Shown here: in pieces, positions 23,282 to 33,277 of the stretch
How positions within the stretch are numbered: the stretch's first letter is position 1
How the letters are laid out: each line of letters opens with the position of its first letter
Assembly (NCBI GenBank): GCA_017305555.1
Contig: JAFKKM010000056.1
Location: 1-33,918, forward strand
Source: Hyphomicrobiales bacterium
Lineage (GTDB): Bacteria; Pseudomonadota; Alphaproteobacteria; Rhizobiales; Xanthobacteraceae
Length of the DNA stretch: 33,918 nucleotides
Reading direction: 5' to 3'
Made by a program: the position numbers and the translations under genes
Notes under the pieces: model-generated
Databases searched by the model: none
The model's input: the letters and a program-made list of their open reading frames with translations, nothing else
Told to the model about the DNA's origin: nothing

Positions 23282-23632
23282 ATGGCCGACCGGCCGTTTC
23301 GTAATCCTTTGCTGGCCAAGCTAGACGGAACCAGCCACTACACCGTTCGCAGCGCGTGGGAAGCGCTGGAATATCTCCTCCGCTATTGGCCCGGACCCCG
23401 AGACCGATCCTACGAAGTCGCGATTCAAATGTGCCGCGACGCGGTGGATGGCTGGATACCAGCCGAGCGAGCGCGCGAATGCCTTAAACACGCTTTGAAT
23501 GCCGCCGGGCTGGCTATCGCTAAACCGCGGCGGACTCCTCGAAAGCAGAGGGTCTCGCGCTTCAAGCGGCCGGCACCAATCGGCAAGGCATCTAGTGACC
23601 CACCCCGAACCGGAGGATTAAACCATGGCTAA
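23282..23632 (+). CDS. DUF982 family protein
   Basis: A 116-residue protein on the plus strand, opposite to its phage neighbours. Residues ~18-62 show the DUF982 pattern: HYTVRSAWEALEYLLRYWPG, then YEVAIQMCRDAVDG. This small family is abundant in Rhizobiales chromosomes and plasmids and has no known function. After residue ~85 the sequence becomes Arg/Lys/Pro-rich. Strong GGGAGAGAAGCA site before the ATG; 8-bp overlap with the following 43-residue gene. It looks like a host-type accessory (moron) gene lodged between early and late operons. Confidence 0.8.
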   Translation: MADRPFRNPLLAKLDGTSHYTVRSAWEALEYLLRYWPGPRDRSYEVAIQMCRDAVDGWIPAERARECLKHALNAAGLAIAKPRRTPRKQRVSRFKRPAPIGKASSDPPRTGGLNHG

Positions 23633-23945: not shown

Positions 23946-24353
23946 CTATTTGAAGCGCGCTCGCTTACTCGGACGCGGTTTCCGACTTTTGCGGCGTCCG
24001 CTGCGCGAACCACTGGCAAGGCAACCCTCGAACCGGTTATGGGTGCCGGCAGCATGATCGAGTACGATCTGTGCCATTTCGCCGCCGTGAATCTGGGCGA
24101 TTTTCTCACCATCCATTAGCACATCGATAACGTCATCAATGTTTCGCACTGGTGGCCAGTCATCGCCATTCACGCGGAAGAATACGTAGCCGGGTACTGC
24201 CGCACGCTCAGCGGCAGACGCTCGACCACCAGATACCCACGACCGAACATAGGTCGGCAGGAAAGCACCGCGATTACCCTCCTCAAGCTTTGCGCGGACA
24301 ATATGCTCTCGGCCAGTCAACGTCCGACAAGCAGCCCAGAATTGTTCAGCCAT
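23946..24353 (-). CDS. NusG-like (NGN domain) antitermination protein
   Basis: A 135-residue protein starting at ATG 24353, which overlaps the LuxR-type gene by 8 bp. The NusG N-terminal domain is visible: FWAACRTLTGREHIVRAKLE (strand plus helix), NRGAFLPTYVRSW, and AVPGYVFFRV (residues 52-61), then NIDDVIDVLMDGEKIAQI. The usual C-terminal KOW domain is missing; a basic tail (residues ~114-135, rich in Ser/Arg/Lys) replaces it. It would bind RNA polymerase and alter elongation or termination. As the last gene before the late module it is a good candidate for the late-gene antiterminator. Confidence 0.82.
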   Translation of the reverse strand: MAEQFWAACRTLTGREHIVRAKLEEGNRGAFLPTYVRSWVSGGRASAAERAAVPGYVFFRVNGDDWPPVRNIDDVIDVLMDGEKIAQIHGGEMAQIVLDHAAGTHNRFEGCLASGSRSGRRKSRKPRPSKRARFK

Positions 24354-24597
24354 GAATCTCTTCCTTCTCGGCCGAAAGGGAAATGCGGGCCAACCCCACT
24401 GCATTCCGCACGCCCATTTTGCGGAACACTTCGGCGCGATGTTCCTCAACAGTCCGAGGACTGATGTCGAGGCGCGCCGATATCTCCTTAGTGGAAAGCC
24501 CGAGAACAAGCAGATCGCAGACGTGCCGCTGCCGCTCCGTCAATCCTTGCCGCGCTGCATCAATCGGCTGCCCCGCGATGGTCTTATGCTCCGGCAA
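24346..24597 (-). CDS. LuxR/GerE-type helix-turn-helix regulator
   Basis: About 83 residues if translation begins at TTG 24597, which has GGAGG six bases upstream; longer readings to 24810 are compositionally implausible and overlap the TSCPD gene throughout. The LuxR C-terminal domain is complete at residues ~18-72: GLTERQRHVCDLLVLGLSTK, EISARLDISPRTVEEHRAEV, FRKMGVRNAVGLARI. There is no receiver or ligand domain. It overlaps the genes on both sides (14 bp and 8 bp). It likely activates a phage promoter, with late genes the obvious target; the palindrome at 23921-23936 is a possible site. Confidence 0.82.
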   Translation of the reverse strand: MPEHKTIAGQPIDAARQGLTERQRHVCDLLVLGLSTKEISARLDISPRTVEEHRAEVFRKMGVRNAVGLARISLSAEKEEIHG

Positions 24598-24901
24598 TGC
24601 CGTCCTCCGTGAGGTGATCGATGATGGCGCCGACGATCGCCGTGGGGTTGCCGGCGCTGTCGCGTGAAATGGCGCGCTTGATGGTTTCGAGCGGCGTCCC
24701 GTGCTGTAGGGCCAACGACAGCACCACCGCGGCATCGCGCGCGGTGGCCTGCACGTCTTGCCCGGTCTTGCCGCCGTCGATGAAGACCTCGCCGGGCGTA
24801 CCGTCAGCATAGAAGCCCACCGTCACGTAGAACTGTTGATTCCAGAAGCGGATCGGGAATGTTTCCGAGGCGCGGCGTTGCGGAAGAATTTGGCGGGTCA
24901 T
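24584..24901 (-). CDS. TSCPD-domain protein (ribonucleotide reductase C-terminal-like)
   Basis: A 105-residue protein from ATG 24901, with a GAGG site in the upstream gene's stop region. The body matches the TSCPD domain found at the C-terminus of B12-dependent ribonucleotide reductases and as a stand-alone protein: FYVTVGFYADGTPGEVFIDG, GKTGQDVQATARDAAVVLSL, ALQHGTPLETIKRAI. No large reductase subunit gene is present in the window. It may act with a host NrdJ-type enzyme or do something else in nucleotide metabolism. Translationally linked to the LuxR-type gene (14-bp overlap). Confidence 0.75.
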   Translation of the reverse strand: MTRQILPQRRASETFPIRFWNQQFYVTVGFYADGTPGEVFIDGGKTGQDVQATARDAAVVLSLALQHGTPLETIKRAISRDSAGNPTAIVGAIIDHLTEDGIAGA

Positions 24902-24909
24902 GCCAAGCC

Positions 24910-25299
24910 TCACGCGATCCAAAGAATTTCGCCGGTCGGGGATTTCAGGCCATCAAAGTTCTTGTCGATGATGAATGAGCGCCAAGACGACCATTGACCG
25001 TTTTTCGTCGAAGCGTACTCCGCGATCTGTTCAAGCTGTTCAGGGTGGAGCGTTGCCGCCAGCTTTCCAGCCTTTCGCAGTGCTTTACGCAGCCCATACC
25101 CGATAGGGTCCGAAAGATAGAAATCGCCGCGATCGACAGCCTCTGAAAGCTCTGCGAACGTATACGCCTTGATCGAAGCAGCCGATCCCTCGCCGCTTCG
25201 TCCAGCTTCATGGACTTCAATCTGATTGAGCACCACGATCATCGCCTCAGCGATCTGCTTCGCGTGACCATCAATAGTCGGAGTAATCTGACGAGACAT
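24910..25299 (-). CDS. Hypothetical early protein
   Basis: A 129-residue protein starting at 25299, inside the last 29 bp of the helicase gene, so coupled to it. Helical, polar content: DGHAKQIAEAMIVVLNQIEV (about 10-29) and GYGLRKALRKAGKLAATLHP (about 67-86), with SWRSFIIDKNFDGLKSP near the end. No family is recognised. Company suggests a DNA replication or host-takeover role, by position only. Confidence 0.65.
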   Translation of the reverse strand: MSRQITPTIDGHAKQIAEAMIVVLNQIEVHEAGRSGEGSAASIKAYTFAELSEAVDRGDFYLSDPIGYGLRKALRKAGKLAATLHPEQLEQIAEYASTKNGQWSSWRSFIIDKNFDGLKSPTGEILWIA

Positions 25300-26773
25300 A
25301 TCGACCCTCGCTGAGTTTGTAGTTCATCTTCAAAAGACACGGATAACCAAGTTCGTCGAACCGCGCCTTGCGGTGATAGAAATCCGCCTCGGTCTTGCGG
25401 CCGGTTTCATCAAACATCTTCGGCCGGTGGACGACGAAGCCTTGATCGACCATGTTGTCCCAGTTCTTCGAACCGGAAATATCTTCAAGCAACGGCGGAT
25501 GATTCTTGCGATCTCCACCCATCTTGGCCGGATGCGCGAGGATCTGCACATGCACGTTCATGTCGTGCGCGAACGCGTGGAGATTGCGAAGGCAGCGACC
25601 GATGTATTCGGTCTCCGTCTCATCGCGGGCGCGAGAGGCCTCCATCCGGTTCCACGGATCGGCCTGCACGATGCGGGCTCCGTGGCGAACAACGGCCACC
25701 TCCGCCTTGTCCAGAAACCATTCGAGTGACGGGTTTTGTTCTGGATGCACGACAAACAAATAGCGATCGTCGATCCATTGATCCGCCTTCTTGTGCTCGC
25801 CGAACTCCATGTCCTTTTCGAGCTTGCCGGTCAGAAGCGTGCGGAGGATGCGGCGATAGTGCGGCTTCGGTCGCGTCTCGAATGACGCGATGCAGGCAGG
25901 GACGCTGTACTGTTTAACGACCTGAAACCAGATTTGAGCCCACATCGCCGTCTTCCCATGCCCTGGGTGACCGGTAACAACGCTGAGCGTTCGTGGCGCG
26001 AGCCTGACCTTGCTCTCCCATTCGGCAAAGCCTGGATTCCACAACACAAGCTGCGGCGGGTCGGGTAGTTCTGAAAGTCGATATAACCCCTCTATCGGCC
26101 ATGGCTGGGCGCCGTTGGTGATCAGATCAAGCAGATCCTGCGCGCCATCCTTGCGCAGCATGTCGTTGGCATCCTTGATGCCGTCCGGCCAATCGACGAA
26201 GTGAAACCGTGCCGCACCGAGCAGCCGCACCATATCCGCCCGCAAGGCATGACCCGGACTATCCGCGTCGCCGCACCAGATGAATTTCTTCGCACGACTT
26301 AACCCGGCGCGTAGTGCGTCCTGCACGTAGTCGTAGCCGCGTTGTTCTTTCGGATCATCGGCGGGACGCTCCTTCGCGCCGTTCGGCACCGACAACACGT
26401 ATTGCGGCGGGACACCGGCTTCGACCAACGCACACGCATCGAGCTCCCCCTCGACGATGAACACTCGCGCCATGTCACCTTGCAAAACGGCATCGAGATT
26501 CCAGAAGCACAGCTTGAAGCCGCCGCCAGCAACGAACGCTTTTTCCGGATACGCTCGCGCCTTCCAGCCCTCGCGATACTGGAAGAACACGCCCGATCGT
26601 TTCTGGCCCACGTCAGGAAAAAATACGGTACCTGAGCCGACGGGCAGACGAGCCAAAGTCGCCTCGCTCAGACTTCGCTCGCCGCGCGCCCAAGCGACCG
26701 CGTCCGGGCTCATCGTCGAAGACCGCACCTGAGAACCCGCAGTGCCAGCAGTTATAAATTCCGGAGCATTCAT
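25271..26773 (-). CDS. TOPRIM primase / DnaB-type replicative helicase
   Basis: A 500-residue T7-gp4-like protein lacking its zinc finger in this frame. TOPRIM motifs: VEGELD (107-112) and GDADSPG (168-174), with DAND at 201-204. Helicase: Walker A GHPGHGKT at 268-275, then RARDETETEYIG and VQILAHPAKMGG-type RecA-fold segments (about 385-430). Residues 1-20 look out of frame; sequence conservation seems to begin near Met21 (MSPDAVAWARGERSLSEATL). The missing zinc-binding part is encoded one base out of register immediately upstream (26613-26906), so a +1 shift, a natural gene split or a frameshift error is implied. Confidence 0.88.
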   Translation of the reverse strand: MNAPEFITAGTAGSQVRSSTMSPDAVAWARGERSLSEATLARLPVGSGTVFFPDVGQKRSGVFFQYREGWKARAYPEKAFVAGGGFKLCFWNLDAVLQGDMARVFIVEGELDACALVEAGVPPQYVLSVPNGAKERPADDPKEQRGYDYVQDALRAGLSRAKKFIWCGDADSPGHALRADMVRLLGAARFHFVDWPDGIKDANDMLRKDGAQDLLDLITNGAQPWPIEGLYRLSELPDPPQLVLWNPGFAEWESKVRLAPRTLSVVTGHPGHGKTAMWAQIWFQVVKQYSVPACIASFETRPKPHYRRILRTLLTGKLEKDMEFGEHKKADQWIDDRYLFVVHPEQNPSLEWFLDKAEVAVVRHGARIVQADPWNRMEASRARDETETEYIGRCLRNLHAFAHDMNVHVQILAHPAKMGGDRKNHPPLLEDISGSKNWDNMVDQGFVVHRPKMFDETGRKTEADFYHRKARFDELGYPCLLKMNYKLSEGRYVSSDYSDY

Positions 26774-26906
26774 CGATCTTCACCGAAAGGCATCGGTCGG
26801 TTTTCTTTCGTCTAAGGTGGCTGCACTTGGGACAGGTGACGCGTTGCTCTCCGGACCTGTCCCGCACCCGGATGCCGCGATCTGCAAGCAGCTTCGCTAT
26901 TGCCAT
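26613..26906 (-). CDS. Primase zinc-binding domain (T7 gp4-like), split from helicase frame
   Basis: A reading of 97 residues from ATG 26906, overlapping the upstream DUF1376 gene by 10 bp. Residues 1-66 are a primase zinc ribbon: TCPKC (Cys25, Cys28) and YNCWHCGFSG (Cys53, Cys56), preceded by AIAKLLADRGIRVRDRSGEQ. From ~residue 68 the sequence turns into Arg-rich material overlapping the helicase gene in another frame (26613-26773). In T7-type proteins this domain is fused to the TOPRIM/helicase, so this may be the 5' part of one gene joined by a +1 shift near 26710, or a truncated stand-alone zinc finger. Confidence 0.8.
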   Translation of the reverse strand: MAIAKLLADRGIRVRDRSGEQRVTCPKCSHLRRKKTDRCLSVKIDECSGIYNCWHCGFSGAVFDDEPGRGRLGARRAKSERGDFGSSARRLRYRIFS

Positions 26907-27643
26907 GTGACCCCATAGTTCGCCTGTTCCTTGCGCTCGACCGCATCGGCATTCGCTTTCGCTAGCCATCGCGAGACTGGGAAGAACCACTTGCCGTCAC
27001 GCGGCGGATTTTCGGTGTAGTAGTCGTCAGCCGCCTGCAACTCGGCGCGGAGGTCTGGGATCGCCTTGTACGAGGCGCGCCACTTGTCCAAGCTGTCCTT
27101 CGTCAGGCGGACGGTGTTGCCTTCGAAGACGTAGGATTTGCCAGCAGGACGTTCAGGCGCAACAAAATTTGGAAGCTCGTCGGCGGGCGCGGAGGCGCCC
27201 CCTTCTTTTTTCTTTCTGAGAATATGAGCATCTGAGACTGGTTGGTTCTGTGAACCAACCCATTCATGATCTAAGGCGCTGTTTTCGTTATTAGAGGCTC
27301 GTTTTTCAGCCGATTTATCTCCGCCTTTTCTTCCATTTATCTCGAATTTTTCGGCCTCTTTTTTCTCGGATAAATTTTGCCGGTCAAACCGAGGATTGGA
27401 GATTTTACCGTCGTTCACAGTGATCTTGCCGCGGTCAATCAGCGTCTGCTTGATGCAGTTAAAGCGCCTCGTTGAGCAGCCACAGATGCGGGCAAGCTCT
27501 TTGCCGTCGTCGACGATCGGAGCATGTTTCAGATAGAGCAGGTCGAGCAACGTTGAGTAGACGCCCTTCTCTTCAGCCGACAGATGGACTGTCCCAGCGA
27601 TGAAATCGGCAGGAAATCGTTTGTACCAAGGGCGGCTGCTCAT
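26897..27643 (-). CDS. DUF1376 replication-initiation-type protein
   Basis: A 248-residue protein from ATG 27643 (TAATG overlap with the previous gene). Residues 1-45 match DUF1376/YdaU-like phage proteins: SSRPWYKRFPADFIAGTVHL, SAEEKGVYSTLLDLLYLKHA. A winged-helix-like part follows (ELARICGCSTRRFNCIKQTL). The middle is Lys/Glu/Asn-rich and flexible; the C-terminus contains SLDKWRASYKAIPDLRAEL and GKWFFPVSRWLAKANA. Such proteins occupy the lambda gpO position and are thought to load the helicase at the phage origin. Position directly before the primase-helicase fits. Confidence 0.82.
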   Translation of the reverse strand: MSSRPWYKRFPADFIAGTVHLSAEEKGVYSTLLDLLYLKHAPIVDDGKELARICGCSTRRFNCIKQTLIDRGKITVNDGKISNPRFDRQNLSEKKEAEKFEINGRKGGDKSAEKRASNNENSALDHEWVGSQNQPVSDAHILRKKKEGGASAPADELPNFVAPERPAGKSYVFEGNTVRLTKDSLDKWRASYKAIPDLRAELQAADDYYTENPPRDGKWFFPVSRWLAKANADAVERKEQANYGVTWQ

Positions 27644-27834
27644 TAGCGTCCGCCTCCGTGAATGCGACGCCGCACTTCGGCATCCGGCACGAACTCCGCC
27701 AGCCAAGCCGACCATGCACGGCCGGCAGCGAAGCCGTCATCGATATCAAGGGTCGCCAGCGCCTTGTTCTGAGCGGCTATAAACTCACGCCAGAGCCGCT
27801 CAGGCTGCGTCTCCATTCGCTGAACGGACGACAT
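27643..27834 (-). CDS. Small early hypothetical protein
   Basis: A 63-residue protein starting at ATG 27834 in a TGATG overlap with the HTH gene; a TTG one codon earlier is also possible. Content: RLWREFIAAQNKALATLDI then DGFAAGRAWSAWLAEFVPDA, predominantly helical with several Trp. Ends RRRIHGGGR with the stop overlapping the DUF1376 start. No family is recognised. Confidence 0.7.
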   Translation of the reverse strand: MSSVQRMETQPERLWREFIAAQNKALATLDIDDGFAAGRAWSAWLAEFVPDAEVRRRIHGGGR

Positions 27835-28061
27835 CAATGTGCCTCCCGTTCCGACGTGGATGAAACGACCTTGCCCAGCTTCGCCGCCGCCCAGCGGTCG
27901 AGATCATCGACATGGTAGAGCGGGATGCGGCCGACGTACTGCATGGGAGGCCCGCCACCGATGGTGGCGAGCTTGTTGAGAGTGGCAACGGCAATGGGGA
28001 TGCCGTGTTTCTCCGCCAGATAGGCCGGCACCTGTTTGCGACGAAGGCGAGGGTTGCTCAT
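27834..28061 (-). CDS. HTH (excisionase/MerR-like) DNA-binding protein
   Basis: A 75-residue protein with ATGA/TGATG overlaps on both sides. The sequence RRKQVPAYLAEKHGIPIAV followed by TLNKLATIGGGPPMQYVGRI and YHVDDLDRWAAAKLG has the layout of the winged HTH_17 (excisionase-type) domain: recognition helix, a GGPP wing-like turn with the common pattern P-x-x-x-GR-x-x-Y, and a C-terminal helix. It could be the excisionase, or a regulator or replication accessory. Placement in the early operon, away from the integrase, fits either. Confidence 0.75.
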   Translation of the reverse strand: MSNPRLRRKQVPAYLAEKHGIPIAVATLNKLATIGGGPPMQYVGRIPLYHVDDLDRWAAAKLGKVVSSTSEREAH

Positions 28062-28396: not shown

Positions 28397-28638
28397 GCTG
28401 CACCTCGTGGACCAGACGCGAATGCCGTGCGAAACCCGTCCCTGATCGCTTCGGCGTGATCCTGAATTTCCAGGATCAGCCGATACATGCCTTTTTCGAC
28501 ATCTTCATCGAGTTGGGCTCGCGATGTTGCTTCCAGCAGAGCGATATACTCGACGACTGACAGGATGTCGTTTTCAAGCCGGAAGAAGATTTTGCGCGGA
28601 TCGTCGTTCGGGGCCTCGCCTGAATTGAAGGTGCTCAT
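28393..28638 (-). CDS. Small hypothetical early protein
   Basis: An 81-residue acidic, mostly helical protein, ATGA-coupled to its neighbours. Segments: NDDPRKIFFRLENDILSVVE and YRLILEIQDHAEAIRDGFRT. Its composition and helix pattern resemble the next gene downstream, and they may interact, but no family is recognised. Confidence 0.65.
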   Translation of the reverse strand: MSTFNSGEAPNDDPRKIFFRLENDILSVVEYIALLEATSRAQLDEDVEKGMYRLILEIQDHAEAIRDGFRTAFASGPRGAA

Positions 28639-29114
28639 GCGGCACCGCCGATCTGGTGACGGTCATTGAAGCGAGCCGTCGCCTCGTCGGCGGCAGCTTG
28701 CGCGGCGATGACGACGAGATCACCGAGATCGTCTTGCATGTCGGCTTCGAACCCGACGAGCAGATGCCCCCTGCACTCCATTTCGTCGCCGGTGGATGGC
28801 GAGGCCGACTTCGCGACGTTGGCAATCGCCTGCTCGTAATTGAACAGCCACTCCGTGACGTCATCCAGAGCCTTGCCCGCATCGTTGTGGTTATGTGTCC
28901 CTTCCTCCCAGAACCGGGGCTGACATCGGATCGCGCCGGCGACAGATGCCGTCAGGTGCAGGGCATCCCGCAGGGATAGCAGGTCACGCATCGAAAGAGC
29001 GCGCAGCGCACCAAGGTTGATCGTGCAGGTCAGTGGACCGCAAGGCGCCTGCGGATCACGTTTCGCCGGGATTGCATCCATGGCCGGCAAGGTGCTATTC
29101 TTGGGCTTCTTCAT
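28635..29114 (-). CDS. Hypothetical early protein
   Basis: A 159-residue protein starting at 29114, preceded by TGAGGAAAGCCG, which contains the stop of the RHH gene. Contains LGALRALSMRDLLSLRDALH (about 34-53) and DDVTEWLFNYEQAIANVAKS (about 83-102). No family is recognised. As the second gene of the operon starting at the RHH gene it should be among the first expressed on induction. Confidence 0.65.
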   Translation of the reverse strand: MKKPKNSTLPAMDAIPAKRDPQAPCGPLTCTINLGALRALSMRDLLSLRDALHLTASVAGAIRCQPRFWEEGTHNHNDAGKALDDVTEWLFNYEQAIANVAKSASPSTGDEMECRGHLLVGFEADMQDDLGDLVVIAAQAAADEATARFNDRHQIGGAA

Positions 29115-29123
29115 CGGCTTTCC

Positions 29124-29303
29124 TCACAGGGTTGGCTGGTTTTCAAGGCGCGGCGAGATGGCAGTCTCGGCCGCGCCTTTTGCTTTCATCCGCTCCCGAA
29201 TGGCGCGGACGATCTCGGAATTTTGGGAACTGGCGTTCTCCCGGGCCTCAGCCTCGATGAAGGCTTTGGCGTCGGCGGGAAGGCGTAGGGATGTGGCGAT
29301 CAT
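29124..29303 (-). CDS. Arc/Mnt-like ribbon-helix-helix repressor, 59 residues
   Basis: A very short gene from ATG 29303 to TGA 29124; an in-frame stop lies just upstream (29319-29321), so the start is unambiguous. MIATSLRLPADAKAFIEAEA is the strand and first helix of an RHH fold and SSQNSEIVRAIRERM the second helix, as in Arc/Mnt family proteins (compare S-x-N-S/A-E-I-V-x-x-I). It is the first gene of the minus-strand early operon and diverges from a second RHH gene across an operator-rich 120-bp gap. It probably regulates that region and itself, like a Cro-type or Arc-type early repressor. Confidence 0.85.
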   Translation of the reverse strand: MIATSLRLPADAKAFIEAEARENASSQNSEIVRAIRERMKAKGAAETAISPRLENQPTL

Positions 29304-29423
29304 GTTCGGCTCGGCAAATCATTAACCATGCCAATAATGCCAACTTGGCATATGATGTCAAGTCGGCATCATTCCAACTTGGCATTAGGTGTTTATAAAT
29401 CCGCCAGAGGCGCTGGAGTGACC
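29304..29423. promoter_or_regulatory. Divergent promoter region with three 15-bp operators
   Basis: Three near-identical palindromes are seen: ATGCCAACTTGGCAT (29337-29351, perfect), ATGTCAAGTCGGCAT (29355-29369) and ATTCCAACTTGGCAT (29371-29385); centres are 18 and 16 bp apart. On the minus strand TTGACA (29361-29356) and ATTATT (29338-29333) form a promoter with a 17-bp spacer for the 59-residue RHH gene; the first operator fills the spacer and the second overlaps the -35. On the plus strand TATAAA (29394-29399) is a likely -10 for the larger RHH gene, with the third operator at its -35. Binding by one or both RHH proteins is inferred. Confidence 0.8.
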
Positions 29424-29909
29424 ATGGCCAAACCGGGCGACGACTACCAAGGAAATGATCCTCGTTATCCAAGCCAGCAGCAGGATAGATTCATCGTCCG
29501 GTTGCCGGATGGTATGCGCGACGATCTCAAGGTCGAGGCGGCCAAAAATGGCCGGTCGATGAATGCTGAAATCGTGTCCAGATTGGTGGAATACGACAGT
29601 CTAAGGAAGCAAATTGAAATGCTTCATCTGAAATTAGATCGAGCTCAGTTGAGCCGCGATCTTTTGCAGAAGGAAATGGCGGACGTTAGCGACGATCGCA
29701 AGCAACTAGCCGTGATGCGTATTCGTTATGATGAGCAGTCAAACATCGTAAACCAATTAATTTCGATTATTGCTCAAGCAACATCTGCGGACCCGCACAT
29801 TATGCAGATGCTCGCAAACGCGATACGAAAAAATGAGAGCAGCCCAGTCGCTAGTGAGATCGCGAAGCACGTCGAAGCTCGCAAAGGCACCAAGTCTAAG
29901 AAAACCTAG
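29424..29909 (+). CDS. Arc-family ribbon-helix-helix protein with coiled-coil, 161 residues
   Basis: Start ATG 29424, with GGAG seven bases upstream; an upstream in-frame reading would run through the operators and is rejected. Residues ~19-53 form an Arc-type RHH domain: DRFIVRLPDGMRDDLKVEAA then NGRSMNAEIVSRLVEY. Residues ~55-110 are a heptad-rich coiled coil (LRKQIEMLHLKLDRAQLSRD) and the tail is basic (KGTKSKKT). As the only rightward gene at the switch, it is the best candidate for the lysogenic repressor maintained in the prophage, in place of a CI-type protein. The P22 Mnt/Arc immI region is the closest known analogy. Confidence 0.85.
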   Translation: MAKPGDDYQGNDPRYPSQQQDRFIVRLPDGMRDDLKVEAAKNGRSMNAEIVSRLVEYDSLRKQIEMLHLKLDRAQLSRDLLQKEMADVSDDRKQLAVMRIRYDEQSNIVNQLISIIAQATSADPHIMQMLANAIRKNESSPVASEIAKHVEARKGTKSKKT

Positions 29910-30109: not shown

Positions 30110-30733
30110 TCACTCATCCTTCCAGTCAATCACCAACTCCCCACCGAAGAACTCCACGGCCTTCTTGATGTGCCGGATGTTGACGTAGTCCTTCCGCTTG
30201 TTTCGTTTCCGCATACCGTTCTTGCAGAAATACCCGCCGGACTTAAGTTCGTTGTCGAGCGCTTCCAGAGAGATGCCATCTTCCCACGCGCGTAATCTGA
30301 CAGCGTCGAGCAGTGGAATGCGATAAACTTTCGGCCGGTGCCTCGCTCGACTGAGCTCATTGTTAGCGAGCCCGATGTATCGGGCTCGGCCCTGTACCGC
30401 AGCTCGCGAACGCCCCGGTAACATCAGCGATATTTGACGCCAGTTCAGCTTCGGGGTGTGCTCCCTGAGAATGCGATCCTCCTCCGGTGTCCAGTTTTTC
30501 TGTGACTTAAAGGAGCATCCAAGCTTCACCCGGCGCGCAATTAGAGCATTACGCGTCCGCCTTGGAAAAAGGCGCATAATCTCGCCAATTGGCCTATCCC
30601 TGCTCTTCAGAAGGAGAGCATCCTCTTCTTTCGACCAAAGAACGTGCCCGAGCGGTGTTCTTCCTTCGCGCTGCATTCTCTGGCGCGAAGCCTTAGCAAG
30701 AAAGGCTGAACGGGAAAGAAAGCTGATATCCAT
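30110..30733 (-). CDS. Two-repeat Myb/SANT-like DNA-binding protein
   Basis: A 207-residue protein, start ATG 30733 with GGGAG upstream. Two Myb/SANT-like repeats are visible: WSKEEDALLLKSRDRPIGEI with FPRRTRNALIARRVKLG (about 33-72), and WTPEEDRILREHTPKLNWRQ with LPGRSRAAVQGRARYIGL (about 81-122). Each begins W-[ST]-x-EED and ends in a basic recognition helix. The rest (YRIPLLDAVRLRAWEDGISL, then KRNKRKDYVNIRHIKKAVEF) is basic and unassigned. It is probably a phage transcription or replication regulator expressed in the lysogen or early, facing the palindrome-bearing non-coding region at its 5' end. Confidence 0.75.
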   Translation of the reverse strand: MDISFLSRSAFLAKASRQRMQREGRTPLGHVLWSKEEDALLLKSRDRPIGEIMRLFPRRTRNALIARRVKLGCSFKSQKNWTPEEDRILREHTPKLNWRQISLMLPGRSRAAVQGRARYIGLANNELSRARHRPKVYRIPLLDAVRLRAWEDGISLEALDNELKSGGYFCKNGMRKRNKRKDYVNIRHIKKAVEFFGGELVIDWKDE

Positions 30734-31860: not shown

Positions 31861-33129
31861 TTATGCAGATGCTCGCCCAGGAAGTTCAATCACCTTCCCA
31901 CCCTTGCCCGTCATCTGCCGCCAGACTTCACCCGCGACCTTGTTAGCAGCGGCAACCAGCACTGTGTCGAGCCGATGGACATAGCGGCTCGTGATCGTCG
32001 TACCGGCGTGGCCCAGCAGCGCGCCGATGGTGTTGTCGGAATAGCCTAGATCACCGGCGACGGAGGCATAGCTGTGTCGCAGCGTGTGAGCCGTCACCTC
32101 ATTGAGGCCCGCCGCTTTCATGATGCGCTTGATTGCTCCCGGCAGTCCACCATAGAAGCCCGTCTCGCCGCGACCGGCAGGAAGCACGAAGCGGCCGTCC
32201 GACGACAGACCATCCAGAACGTCGAACGCCGGCCGCCCGACTGGACGCACCGACGCGCCTTCCTTGCTGTCTGCGAGGCGGAAGCAACTCCCGGGCTTGT
32301 CGACCTCGCTCCATTTCAACGCTTCGATCTCACCACGACGGCAACCCGTCAACGCCAGCAGCCAGATTGCAGCGATAGCCTGCGGCGGTTCTATTTCGGC
32401 CGTATCCGTCAGCGTCGAGCCAAGCGCCTTGTATTCCGCCGCAGTTAGCCGTCGGTCGCGTTGCTTATCGGCTTGCAATTTCACACCGCGAACCGGATTG
32501 TCCGGACGTATGTTCTCCGAGATCGCGAAGCTGAAGATCGACCCGAGAAGACCAGCAGTGCGAGACGCGGCGCCGGCGCCGCCCTCCACCACCGATTTGC
32601 CCCGCAGCTTCTTTGTCTTCGCAACGAGCGACGTTTTGCCCACAGTCACATCGCGCACGAAACGAGAGACATCTGATTGAGTGATGTCGATCGCCAGCCT
32701 GGTGCCAAGCAGCGGCTTGATGTGCCGATCAATGCGGCTGCGATCCGTCACCAGCGTTGACGCCTTTTTAGGAAGGCCACGCTTACCCATAATCAGCCCG
32801 CGCTCGGCCGCTTCGAGATAGTTATCGCATAGATCGGAAACGGTGAGCGACTTCCGGCGGGTCGCCTTGTCTTCGGCTGGATCTTCACCGCGCGCCACGT
32901 CGCCGAGAACGATCTTCGCCTGTTTGCGCGCTTCCTCGACAGTGAGTGCACCGTAGTTGCCGATCTTCACGCGCCGCGTTCGACCACCGGCGCGATACTG
33001 AGCGACGAAGTTCTTCTTGCCACTCGGCCACACCCGAATGCCGAAGCCGGAGATGTCATCGTCCCATACGAAGTAATCAGGTTCGCCAGCAGAGAGAGCA
33101 TCGACGTATCGTTTCGTGAGCTTTGCCAT
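31861..33129 (-). CDS. int: Tyrosine recombinase integrase
   Basis: A 422-residue integrase from ATG 33129, with AGGA eight bases upstream; a longer in-frame reading (to 33252) runs through repeats and is rejected. Residues ~5-80 form a DUF4102-type arm-binding domain (YFVWDDDISGFGIRVWPSGK). SAM-like core-binding domain about 95-205. Catalytic residues: Arg264 (TGCRRGE), Lys289 (DSKEG), His348-x-x-Arg351 (AHTLRH), His374 (LLGHAG) and Tyr383 (SRYVHR). It catalyses integration at the tRNA-Arg site 180 bp upstream and excision. Four AGGAAGCA repeats precede it. Confidence 0.95.
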   Translation of the reverse strand: MAKLTKRYVDALSAGEPDYFVWDDDISGFGIRVWPSGKKNFVAQYRAGGRTRRVKIGNYGALTVEEARKQAKIVLGDVARGEDPAEDKATRRKSLTVSDLCDNYLEAAERGLIMGKRGLPKKASTLVTDRSRIDRHIKPLLGTRLAIDITQSDVSRFVRDVTVGKTSLVAKTKKLRGKSVVEGGAGAASRTAGLLGSIFSFAISENIRPDNPVRGVKLQADKQRDRRLTAAEYKALGSTLTDTAEIEPPQAIAAIWLLALTGCRRGEIEALKWSEVDKPGSCFRLADSKEGASVRPVGRPAFDVLDGLSSDGRFVLPAGRGETGFYGGLPGAIKRIMKAAGLNEVTAHTLRHSYASVAGDLGYSDNTIGALLGHAGTTITSRYVHRLDTVLVAAANKVAGEVWRQMTGKGGKVIELPGRASA

Positions 33130-33159
33130 TTTCGATTCCTGCAACAGGGCAAAAGTCTC

Positions 33160-33191
33160 TACAGGAAGCATATAGGAAGCAGTAGGAAGCA
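33160..33191 (+). repeat. Three tandem integrase arm-type repeats
   Basis: TACAGGAAGCA (33160-33170), TATAGGAAGCA (33171-33181) and AGTAGGAAGCA (33181-33191) are tandem, about 10-11 bp apart (one helical turn). A fourth copy, TACAGGAAGCA, is at 33278-33288, beside the tRNA remnant. Spacing and position between the integrase start and the attachment core are as expected for arm-type integrase binding sites; they may also autoregulate the integrase promoter. Confidence 0.75.
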
Positions 33192-33277
33192 AATTCCAGC
33201 AAAGTTCCGTATAACCGTTGCCTTTCGAGAAAACAGAAAATGCCTGTAACACAGCCGTTAAGTCAACGATGGAAGCC

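Follow-up and report, generated by a model that had tools for sequence, protein, structure and literature searches.

Which proteins keep a prophage silent when two divergent genes for ribbon-helix-helix (RHH) proteins stand between its integrase and its early operon? The earlier note on this DNA had proposed that such an Arc/Mnt-like pair, in place of a CI/Cro-type pair, may take the primary lysogeny decision. We examined this proposal in the window, meaning the whole stretch of DNA analysed, which is a complete contig of 33918 bp within a 5.17-Mb assembly, and in related loci from viral records and genomes.

The RHH gene pair, its gap and its prophage

The contig carries a tailed-phage prophage whose genes are read chiefly on the minus strand in the order integrase, accessory genes, RHH pair, early and replication genes, NusG-like and HNH genes, small and large terminase, portal, capsid, tape measure, tail tip and lysozyme, and it breaks off just beyond the lysis genes (Table 1). 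A dead prophage with a switch that no longer works is a very improbable reading of this contig: the element is known only as an assembly contig with its left end unseen, but the frames for both terminase subunits, portal, capsid, tape measure, tail tip, lysozyme, helicase and integrase are full-length and family-matched. Neither Pfam nor PHROG gave a match at E ≤ 1 for the second gene of the early operon, and the overlapping NusG-like and LuxR/GerE-type genes at the operon's end possibly serve antitermination and late control. Separately, ARAGORN called a tRNA-Gly (ccc) at 23311-23392 on the minus strand, within a plus-strand DUF982 frame of 116 aa.

Both RHH proteins, here called ArcS and MntL, exceed the Pfam Arc cut-off of 20.4 bits, which bears out their recognition in the earlier note as divergent Arc/Mnt-like proteins of 59 and 161 residues. 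MntL consists of an N-terminal Arc-type domain with the ribbon RFIVRLP and a long, helical-looking C-terminus, judged by eye to be a heptad-rich helix beyond residue ~58. Its sequence matches in the Protein Data Bank include AmrZ (3.7e-8) and Mnt (0.0023); a match to the TprA model (4.1e-11) reaches 43 of 150 bits, far under the cut-off. Both proteins carry the PHROG label 'partition protein'.

Table 1. Features of the RHH locus and of the surrounding prophage, in window coordinates
Feature	Coordinates	Strand	Evidence and remarks
Small RHH protein ArcS, 59 aa, heads early operon	29124..29303	-	Pfam Arc E 2.1e-4, 21.5 bits
Large RHH protein MntL, 161 aa, proposed lysogenic repressor	29424..29909	+	Pfam Arc E 8.5e-13, 48.4 bits
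Additional half-site ATGCCAA	29328..29334		sequence
Operator 1 (predicted), ATGCCAACTTGGCAT	29337..29351		0 mismatches to ATGCCAANTTGGCAT; covers early-promoter spacer and part of -10
Operator 2 (predicted), ATGTCAAGTCGGCAT	29355..29369		2 mismatches to ATGCCAANTTGGCAT; covers early-promoter -35
Operator 3 (predicted), ATTCCAACTTGGCAT	29371..29385		1 mismatch to ATGCCAANTTGGCAT; covers weak -35 region of large gene
Early (small-gene) promoter TTGACA-16-CATTAT	29334..29361	-	10/12 consensus matches
TATAAA, likely -10 of large gene	29394..29399	+	sequence; -35 weak, within operator 3
Second early-operon gene, 159 aa, no family	28635..29114	-	directly after ArcS also in L074 (44%) and L232 (46%)
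Conserved small gene, AlpA/excisionase-like in location and appearance (name inferred)	27834..28061	-	Pfam HTH_17 only E 0.17
Replication genes: DUF1376 protein, primase-like part, DnaB/Toprim helicase-primase	25271..27715	-	zinc ribbon only E 0.18
NusG-like protein and overlapping LuxR/GerE-type protein, end of early operon	23946..24810	-	Pfam
Tyrosine integrase, large-RHH side	31861..33252	-	Pfam Phage_integrase 1.2e-14, Arm-DNA-bind_3 1.9e-17

The 120-bp gap between the two genes (29304-29423) holds three palindromes exactly where the earlier note had placed them. That note had also put a minus-strand promoter beneath them, and its place stood while its register shifted by one: the best elements are TTGACA at 29361-29356 and CATTAT at 29339-29334 with a 16-bp spacer, and not ATTATT at 17 bp. 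The plus-strand TATAAA is present as claimed, accompanied only by a weak -35. A promoter scan of the region returned four promoter-like sites against 0.8 expected and did not list the plus-strand TATAAA.

The number of palindromes in the window is weakly unusual at most, because 7 of 100 shuffles also reach three; allowing up to three mismatches to ATGCCAANTTGGCAT, the window has three matches against 1.02 expected. What is remarkable is their clustering inside 49 bp. The repeated-dyad score of the gap is 24, compared with a maximum of 13 over 2000 dinucleotide shuffles (0/2000 as high) and of 15 over 400 stretches of 120 bp drawn at random from the window. No sequence in the assembly other than sites 1 and 3 comes within one mismatch of the palindrome.

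The earlier note had seen no CI-, Cro- or LexA-like repressor in the window, and the searches agree. HTH_3 and Peptidase_S24 gave no match on the contig at E ≤ 0.1, a Pfam scan of 28 window proteins found neither domain, and a LexA-type HTH model matched the LuxR-like protein at E 0.028, under its cut-off. The note had further allowed for a canonical repressor in the left part of the prophage; the window is the whole contig, ending just outside the lysis genes, and no such gene was found on it.

Divergent RHH pairs in other phages and their company

Divergent RHH pairs are common and not peculiar to this phage. A Pfam Arc search of 198 genomes of the family found such pairs in seven genomes beyond the window, tblastn with the window proteins added G182, and a profile built from seven small RHH proteins retrieved 69 viral and 78 genome loci. 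Viral contigs searched with the 161-aa protein or the 159-aa second-gene product alone gave no relatives, and phage records contained no DNA match. Together with the window and nine others, the 147 profile loci make 157, of which 144 hold a divergent pair with <450 bp between the domains; as 147 were retrieved through the small RHH protein, and most of the others because they were paired, this fraction measures how often a small RHH gene has a partner. The gaps comprise 126 distinct strings drawn from viral and genome loci that overlap, and by eye at least three loci are present twice in opposite orientation (L059/L182, L065/L157 and L067/L129).

The multi-operator arrangement, whose conservation in homologous prophages the earlier note had suggested checking, recurs in these gaps. 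Repeated dyads occur in 107 of the 126 (p ≤ 0.05 against 60 shuffles), with at least three sites in 61; this dyad detector was used in place of a strict palindrome detector that missed many sites (at least three in 37 gaps, two in 38 and none in 51). About 20 gaps, mostly from Rhodobacteraceae (L191, L195-L215, L217, L218), share nearly one operator, GTGGCACTGTGCCAT, and beyond the small gene two loci of this GTGGCACTGTGCCAT type (L205, L210) carry a 343-aa integrase-like gene, a layout resembling that of a small integrative element. One record titled Bacillus subtilis (L166) carries an RHH pair that resembles the alphaproteobacterial ones, and its contig may be misassigned.

A close studied parallel is immI of phage P22, where the divergent genes mnt and arc have operators between them, separate ones for Arc and for Mnt; the window likewise has divergent mnt-like and arc-like genes with predicted operators in between. 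In the available portions of PMC11016777 and PMC7549136, the two P22 RHH repressors divide the work, with the lysogenic Mnt repressing arc and ant and the lytic Arc inhibiting mnt and moderating ant. The window pair could by analogy be a secondary module that tunes early genes while the primary repressor belongs to another family (candidates are the LuxR-like gene at 24349-24810 and the Myb-like gene at 30113-30733) or lies beyond the contig's left end. We rate this reading as rather unlikely.

Several observations lean toward a secondary module. P22 immI, the studied example, is called dispensable in the accessible text of PMC11016777, yet its deletion reduces the frequency of lysogeny, and the window encodes other DNA-binding proteins. 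Among the 28 viral records of at least 30 kb with a small RHH gene, taken from the 69 and including one without an RHH partner (L130), 24 also have an HTH_3 match at E ≤ 0.01, above the cut-off in 22; not every such match is a phage repressor, because the records may include host flanks. Because an HTH_3 protein so often coexists with it, the RHH pair may be secondary in many of these phages, as it is in P22. The immI type itself is recognisable in Paracoccus and Salmonella phages, where the pair lies among tail genes and adjoins an annotated antirepressor, and in a Klebsiella phage, where it adjoins a Bro-N protein and the tape measure gene.

The window differs from this type in position and content. 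P22 immI is secondary and controls the antirepressor of C2, whereas the window pair sits at the boundary of integrase and early operon rather than in the tail region and faces the integrase and the replication operon. Its palindrome is present in three copies, the searches turned up no CI-like gene, and antirepressor-like queries, which in 14 of 126 loci match genes that follow the small gene, gave no match behind its arc-like gene.

Relatives with the window's gene order sharpen this comparison. The integrase lies on the large-gene side within 3.5 kb in 11 of 126 loci and on the small-gene side within 4 kb in 49, and in three of the 11 (the window, L074 and L145) replication genes follow the small gene as well. 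L225, L227 and L229 came from a scan with the excisionase-like gene and L232 from one with the second early gene; the order integrase, large RHH, small RHH, replication genes is found in the window, L074, L145, L225 and L232. Homologs of ArcS, 72-81% identical over the matched part, adjoin a large RHH gene in L074, L143, L145, L225 and L232, and the excisionase-like gene has homologs in L074 (77% identical), L112 (67%), L145 (65%), L183 (49%) and L059 (38%). HTH_3 and S24 matches are absent from the window, L074 (30580 bp), L225 (33170 bp) and L232 (30871 bp), as also from L075, and L074, L225 and L232 further show no homolog of the Myb-like gene beside the integrase.

In L227 (34151 bp) and L229, a large RHH gene alone fills the slot between the integrase and the excisionase-like gene, which likewise speaks against a secondary module. 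In L227 the single HTH_3 match is marginal (23.5 bits) and falls in an 85-aa frame towards the opposite end of the record; L229 has an HTH_3 match of 16.2 bits, under the cut-off, and another RHH frame 5 kb away; neither gave an S24 match in the genome search. L112 is a counter-example that combines the excisionase-like gene and an RHH pair with a CI-type HTH_3/S24 protein; the genome search detected its HTH_3 domain but overlooked its S24 domain, which scored 23.8 bits in a direct scan, so S24-negative genome searches carry little weight. L145 was considered as a fully CI-free relative and dropped, having a weak HTH_3 frame of 22.9 bits (23.5 with neighbours) 16 kb off the pair and a late region that seems incomplete; it also has an S24 match 42 kb from the pair. 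Finally, L045 (G159) suggests that the repressor slot can be filled by either type, because the gene opposite its small RHH gene, across a palindrome-like gap, encodes an HTH_3 protein (27.5 bits) and not a large RHH protein.

The position of the integrase raises a further alternative, that the pair governs only integration and excision, through int and the excisionase-like gene, as the switch of an integrative element rather than of the lytic programme. The integrase counts above fit this idea, as do L183 and L182, small elements with an integrase, an RHH pair and an excisionase-like gene that, like two Roseobacter loci, have little else recognised nearby. We consider it improbable, since the genes that follow the small gene on its strand lead on into replication genes in the window, L074, L145, L225 and L232. 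A Mesorhizobium element (L143) has integrase, large RHH and small RHH in this order, followed by protease, capsid and tape-measure-like genes; the searches recognised neither a replication gene in it nor a terminase match nearby, and it might be a satellite or a remnant.

Taken together, the relatives without an HTH_3 or S24 match, the slot occupied by a large RHH gene alone in L227 and L229 and the exchange of repressor type in L045 make a primary role for the large RHH protein likely in phages with the order integrase, large RHH, small RHH, replication genes, with the small RHH protein as an optional partner. The proposal that a pure RHH pair is the primary lysogeny switch is thus supported in part: the pair occupies a CI/Cro-like slot between integrase and early operon, its three predicted sites lie over divergent promoters and the window, L074, L225 and L232 have no HTH_3 or S24 match, but such pairs are common elsewhere and mostly accompany an HTH_3 match in the long records.

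Correspondence between ribbon residues and operator sequence

Operator sequence varies widely between loci, and we compared this variation with the DNA-contacting ribbon residues of each protein. The test set comprises 66 loci with large RHH domains <85% identical to one another, leaving out 19 gaps without significant dyads, poor ribbon readings (8 listed), even-centred operators and domains at least 85% identical. A high-scoring small-gene promoter is present in 37 of the 66 loci, and an operator falls in its spacer in 32 of these 37, over its -35 in 10 and over its -10 in 16, an overlap counted without a control; over all 66 loci, small-gene promoter scores are only mildly above those of shuffles (median p 0.12). 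In the window, the S-centred register of the operator places A, T and A at positions 2, 6 and 7, the commonest letters there among the 66 operators. The reversed reading, with TTGGCAT inward, was set aside, as the S-centred register gives C at position 3, as in 59 of 66 operators.

Operator similarity follows the large protein. Loci that resemble each other at the two variable contacts in the large protein's ribbon also tend to resemble each other in their operators (Mantel r 0.44), and the correlation persists when the remainder of the domain is controlled for (partial r 0.38, p 0.0005, the floor of 2000 permutations), compared with a partial r of 0.13 (p 0.049) for that remainder. The corresponding values for the small-protein ribbon are r 0.08 (p 0.0245) and partial r 0.06 (p 0.077). 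Leave-one-out prediction of half-site triplets was right in 39 of 62 cases from large-protein contacts (shuffled mean 9.3, maximum 25) and in 20 of 53 from small-protein contacts (shuffled mean 7.8, largest of 500 shuffles 20). The small protein thus appears to have some signal toward the operator, weaker than that of the large protein, and the possibility that the palindromes belong to the small protein alone was not adopted, as these statistics favour the large one.

The resulting ribbon-operator code seems partly readable. Contacts K-V/I-R go with GGC in 13 of 14 loci, K-M-R with GTC in 10 of 11, K-L-R with ATC in six of seven and Q-K-R with ACC in all seven, while Q-I-R is mixed, with five triplets in seven loci. 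The K-V-R entry agrees with the AmrZ-DNA complex, in which, by the accessible part of PMC3325190, Lys18, Val20 and Arg22 read two GGC half-sites. Four loci outside the 66-locus statistic, two of them with even-centred registers, also conform: L227 (K-I-R/GGC) and L229 (K-M-R/GTC) match the code, and L225 (Q-I-R/CGC) and L232 (Q-N-R/AGC) fit too, but from mixed precedents, the agreement of L225 moreover being non-independent, as its large protein resembles that of L076.

The large-protein ribbon of the window, R-I-R, occurs at no other of the 66 loci, and the code therefore does not predict the window operator directly. Because operator sequence follows the large-protein ribbon across loci, by a code consistent with AmrZ, the 161-aa protein probably uses the window palindromes as its operators. 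We are less sure that the 59-aa protein binds them; its contacts are A-S-R, different from those of its partner. Small and large contacts differ in 51 of 66 loci and are the same in 15 (shuffled mean 2.6, maximum 8), and in those 15 an operator shared in the manner of CI and Cro is likely.

A candidate lysogeny switch and its known relatives

As a somewhat favoured reading, we propose that the prophage has an RHH-built lysogeny switch in which the 161-aa protein acts as lysogenic repressor and the 59-aa protein as its early partner. The 161-aa protein would form dimers, probably joined into tetramers by its tail, and contact the palindromes through its β-ribbon. Occupancy of operators 1 and 2 would block the promoter of the 59-aa gene and with it the early and replication operon, and occupancy of operator 3 would let the 161-aa protein limit its own synthesis. 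The 59-aa protein, as the first early product, would most likely damp the divergent promoters during lytic growth, like Arc of P22 or Cro of lambda.

This scheme has the outline of the lambda switch, in which two repressors, CI and Cro, share operators OR1-3 between divergent genes with the early operon on one side: the window also has two proposed repressors, three predicted operators and a flanking early operon. Unlike those of lambda, the proteins have the RHH rather than the HTH fold, and no S24 domain was found.

Other RHH regulators resemble the locus in part. In SSV1, the available text of PMC9608457 and PMC5569661 describes the RHH protein F55 as occupying repeated sites at early promoters and at its own promoter and thereby maintaining the lysogenic or carrier state, so that RHH control of lysogeny would be common to both systems; F55 is a single 55-aa protein of an archaeal virus that binds direct tandem repeats, and that text describes no divergent RHH partner. 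AmrZ and TprA of Pseudomonas aeruginosa, named RHH relatives of MntL by sequence, are a cellular regulator and an activator of an integrative and conjugative element (PMC8565334, as far as its text is accessible), neither of them a phage switch. In 12 of 182 Pf prophages an inserted Arc-family gene removes the repressor C gene, but Pf is a filamentous phage, unlike the tailed phage of the window, and the accessible part of PMC7549136 leaves the mechanism open. An Arc domain is also predicted in YosL of SP-beta, for which the portion available of PMC10516654 proposes a role as activator of the lytic cycle. In the literature searched, in which subscription papers are thinly covered, we recognised no divergent RHH pair described as the sole switch of a tailed phage. 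This is slender evidence for the novelty suggested in the earlier note, and RHH control of lysogeny as such has a precedent in SSV1 F55. The window switch is likely a variant of Mnt/Arc control in a primary position.

A broader reading, for which we judge the case evenly balanced, is that a class of alphaproteobacterial temperate phages relies on RHH proteins only for lysogeny, with a large RHH repressor, several operators that cover divergent promoters in the manner of lambda OR and, as an optional partner in Cro's place, a small RHH protein, and that their immunity types diverge as two or three residues of the ribbon change in step with the operators, by a code readable from sequence. If this is true, Mnt/Arc control, which in P22 forms a second immunity region, would be the main switch of a phage group, and a three-operator logic would have been made from a fold other than that of CI and Cro. 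The ribbon-to-operator code suggests immunity groups that may be predictable from sequence and can be tested singly, and it would offer naturally matched repressor-operator pairs for studying how specificity changes in genetic switches.
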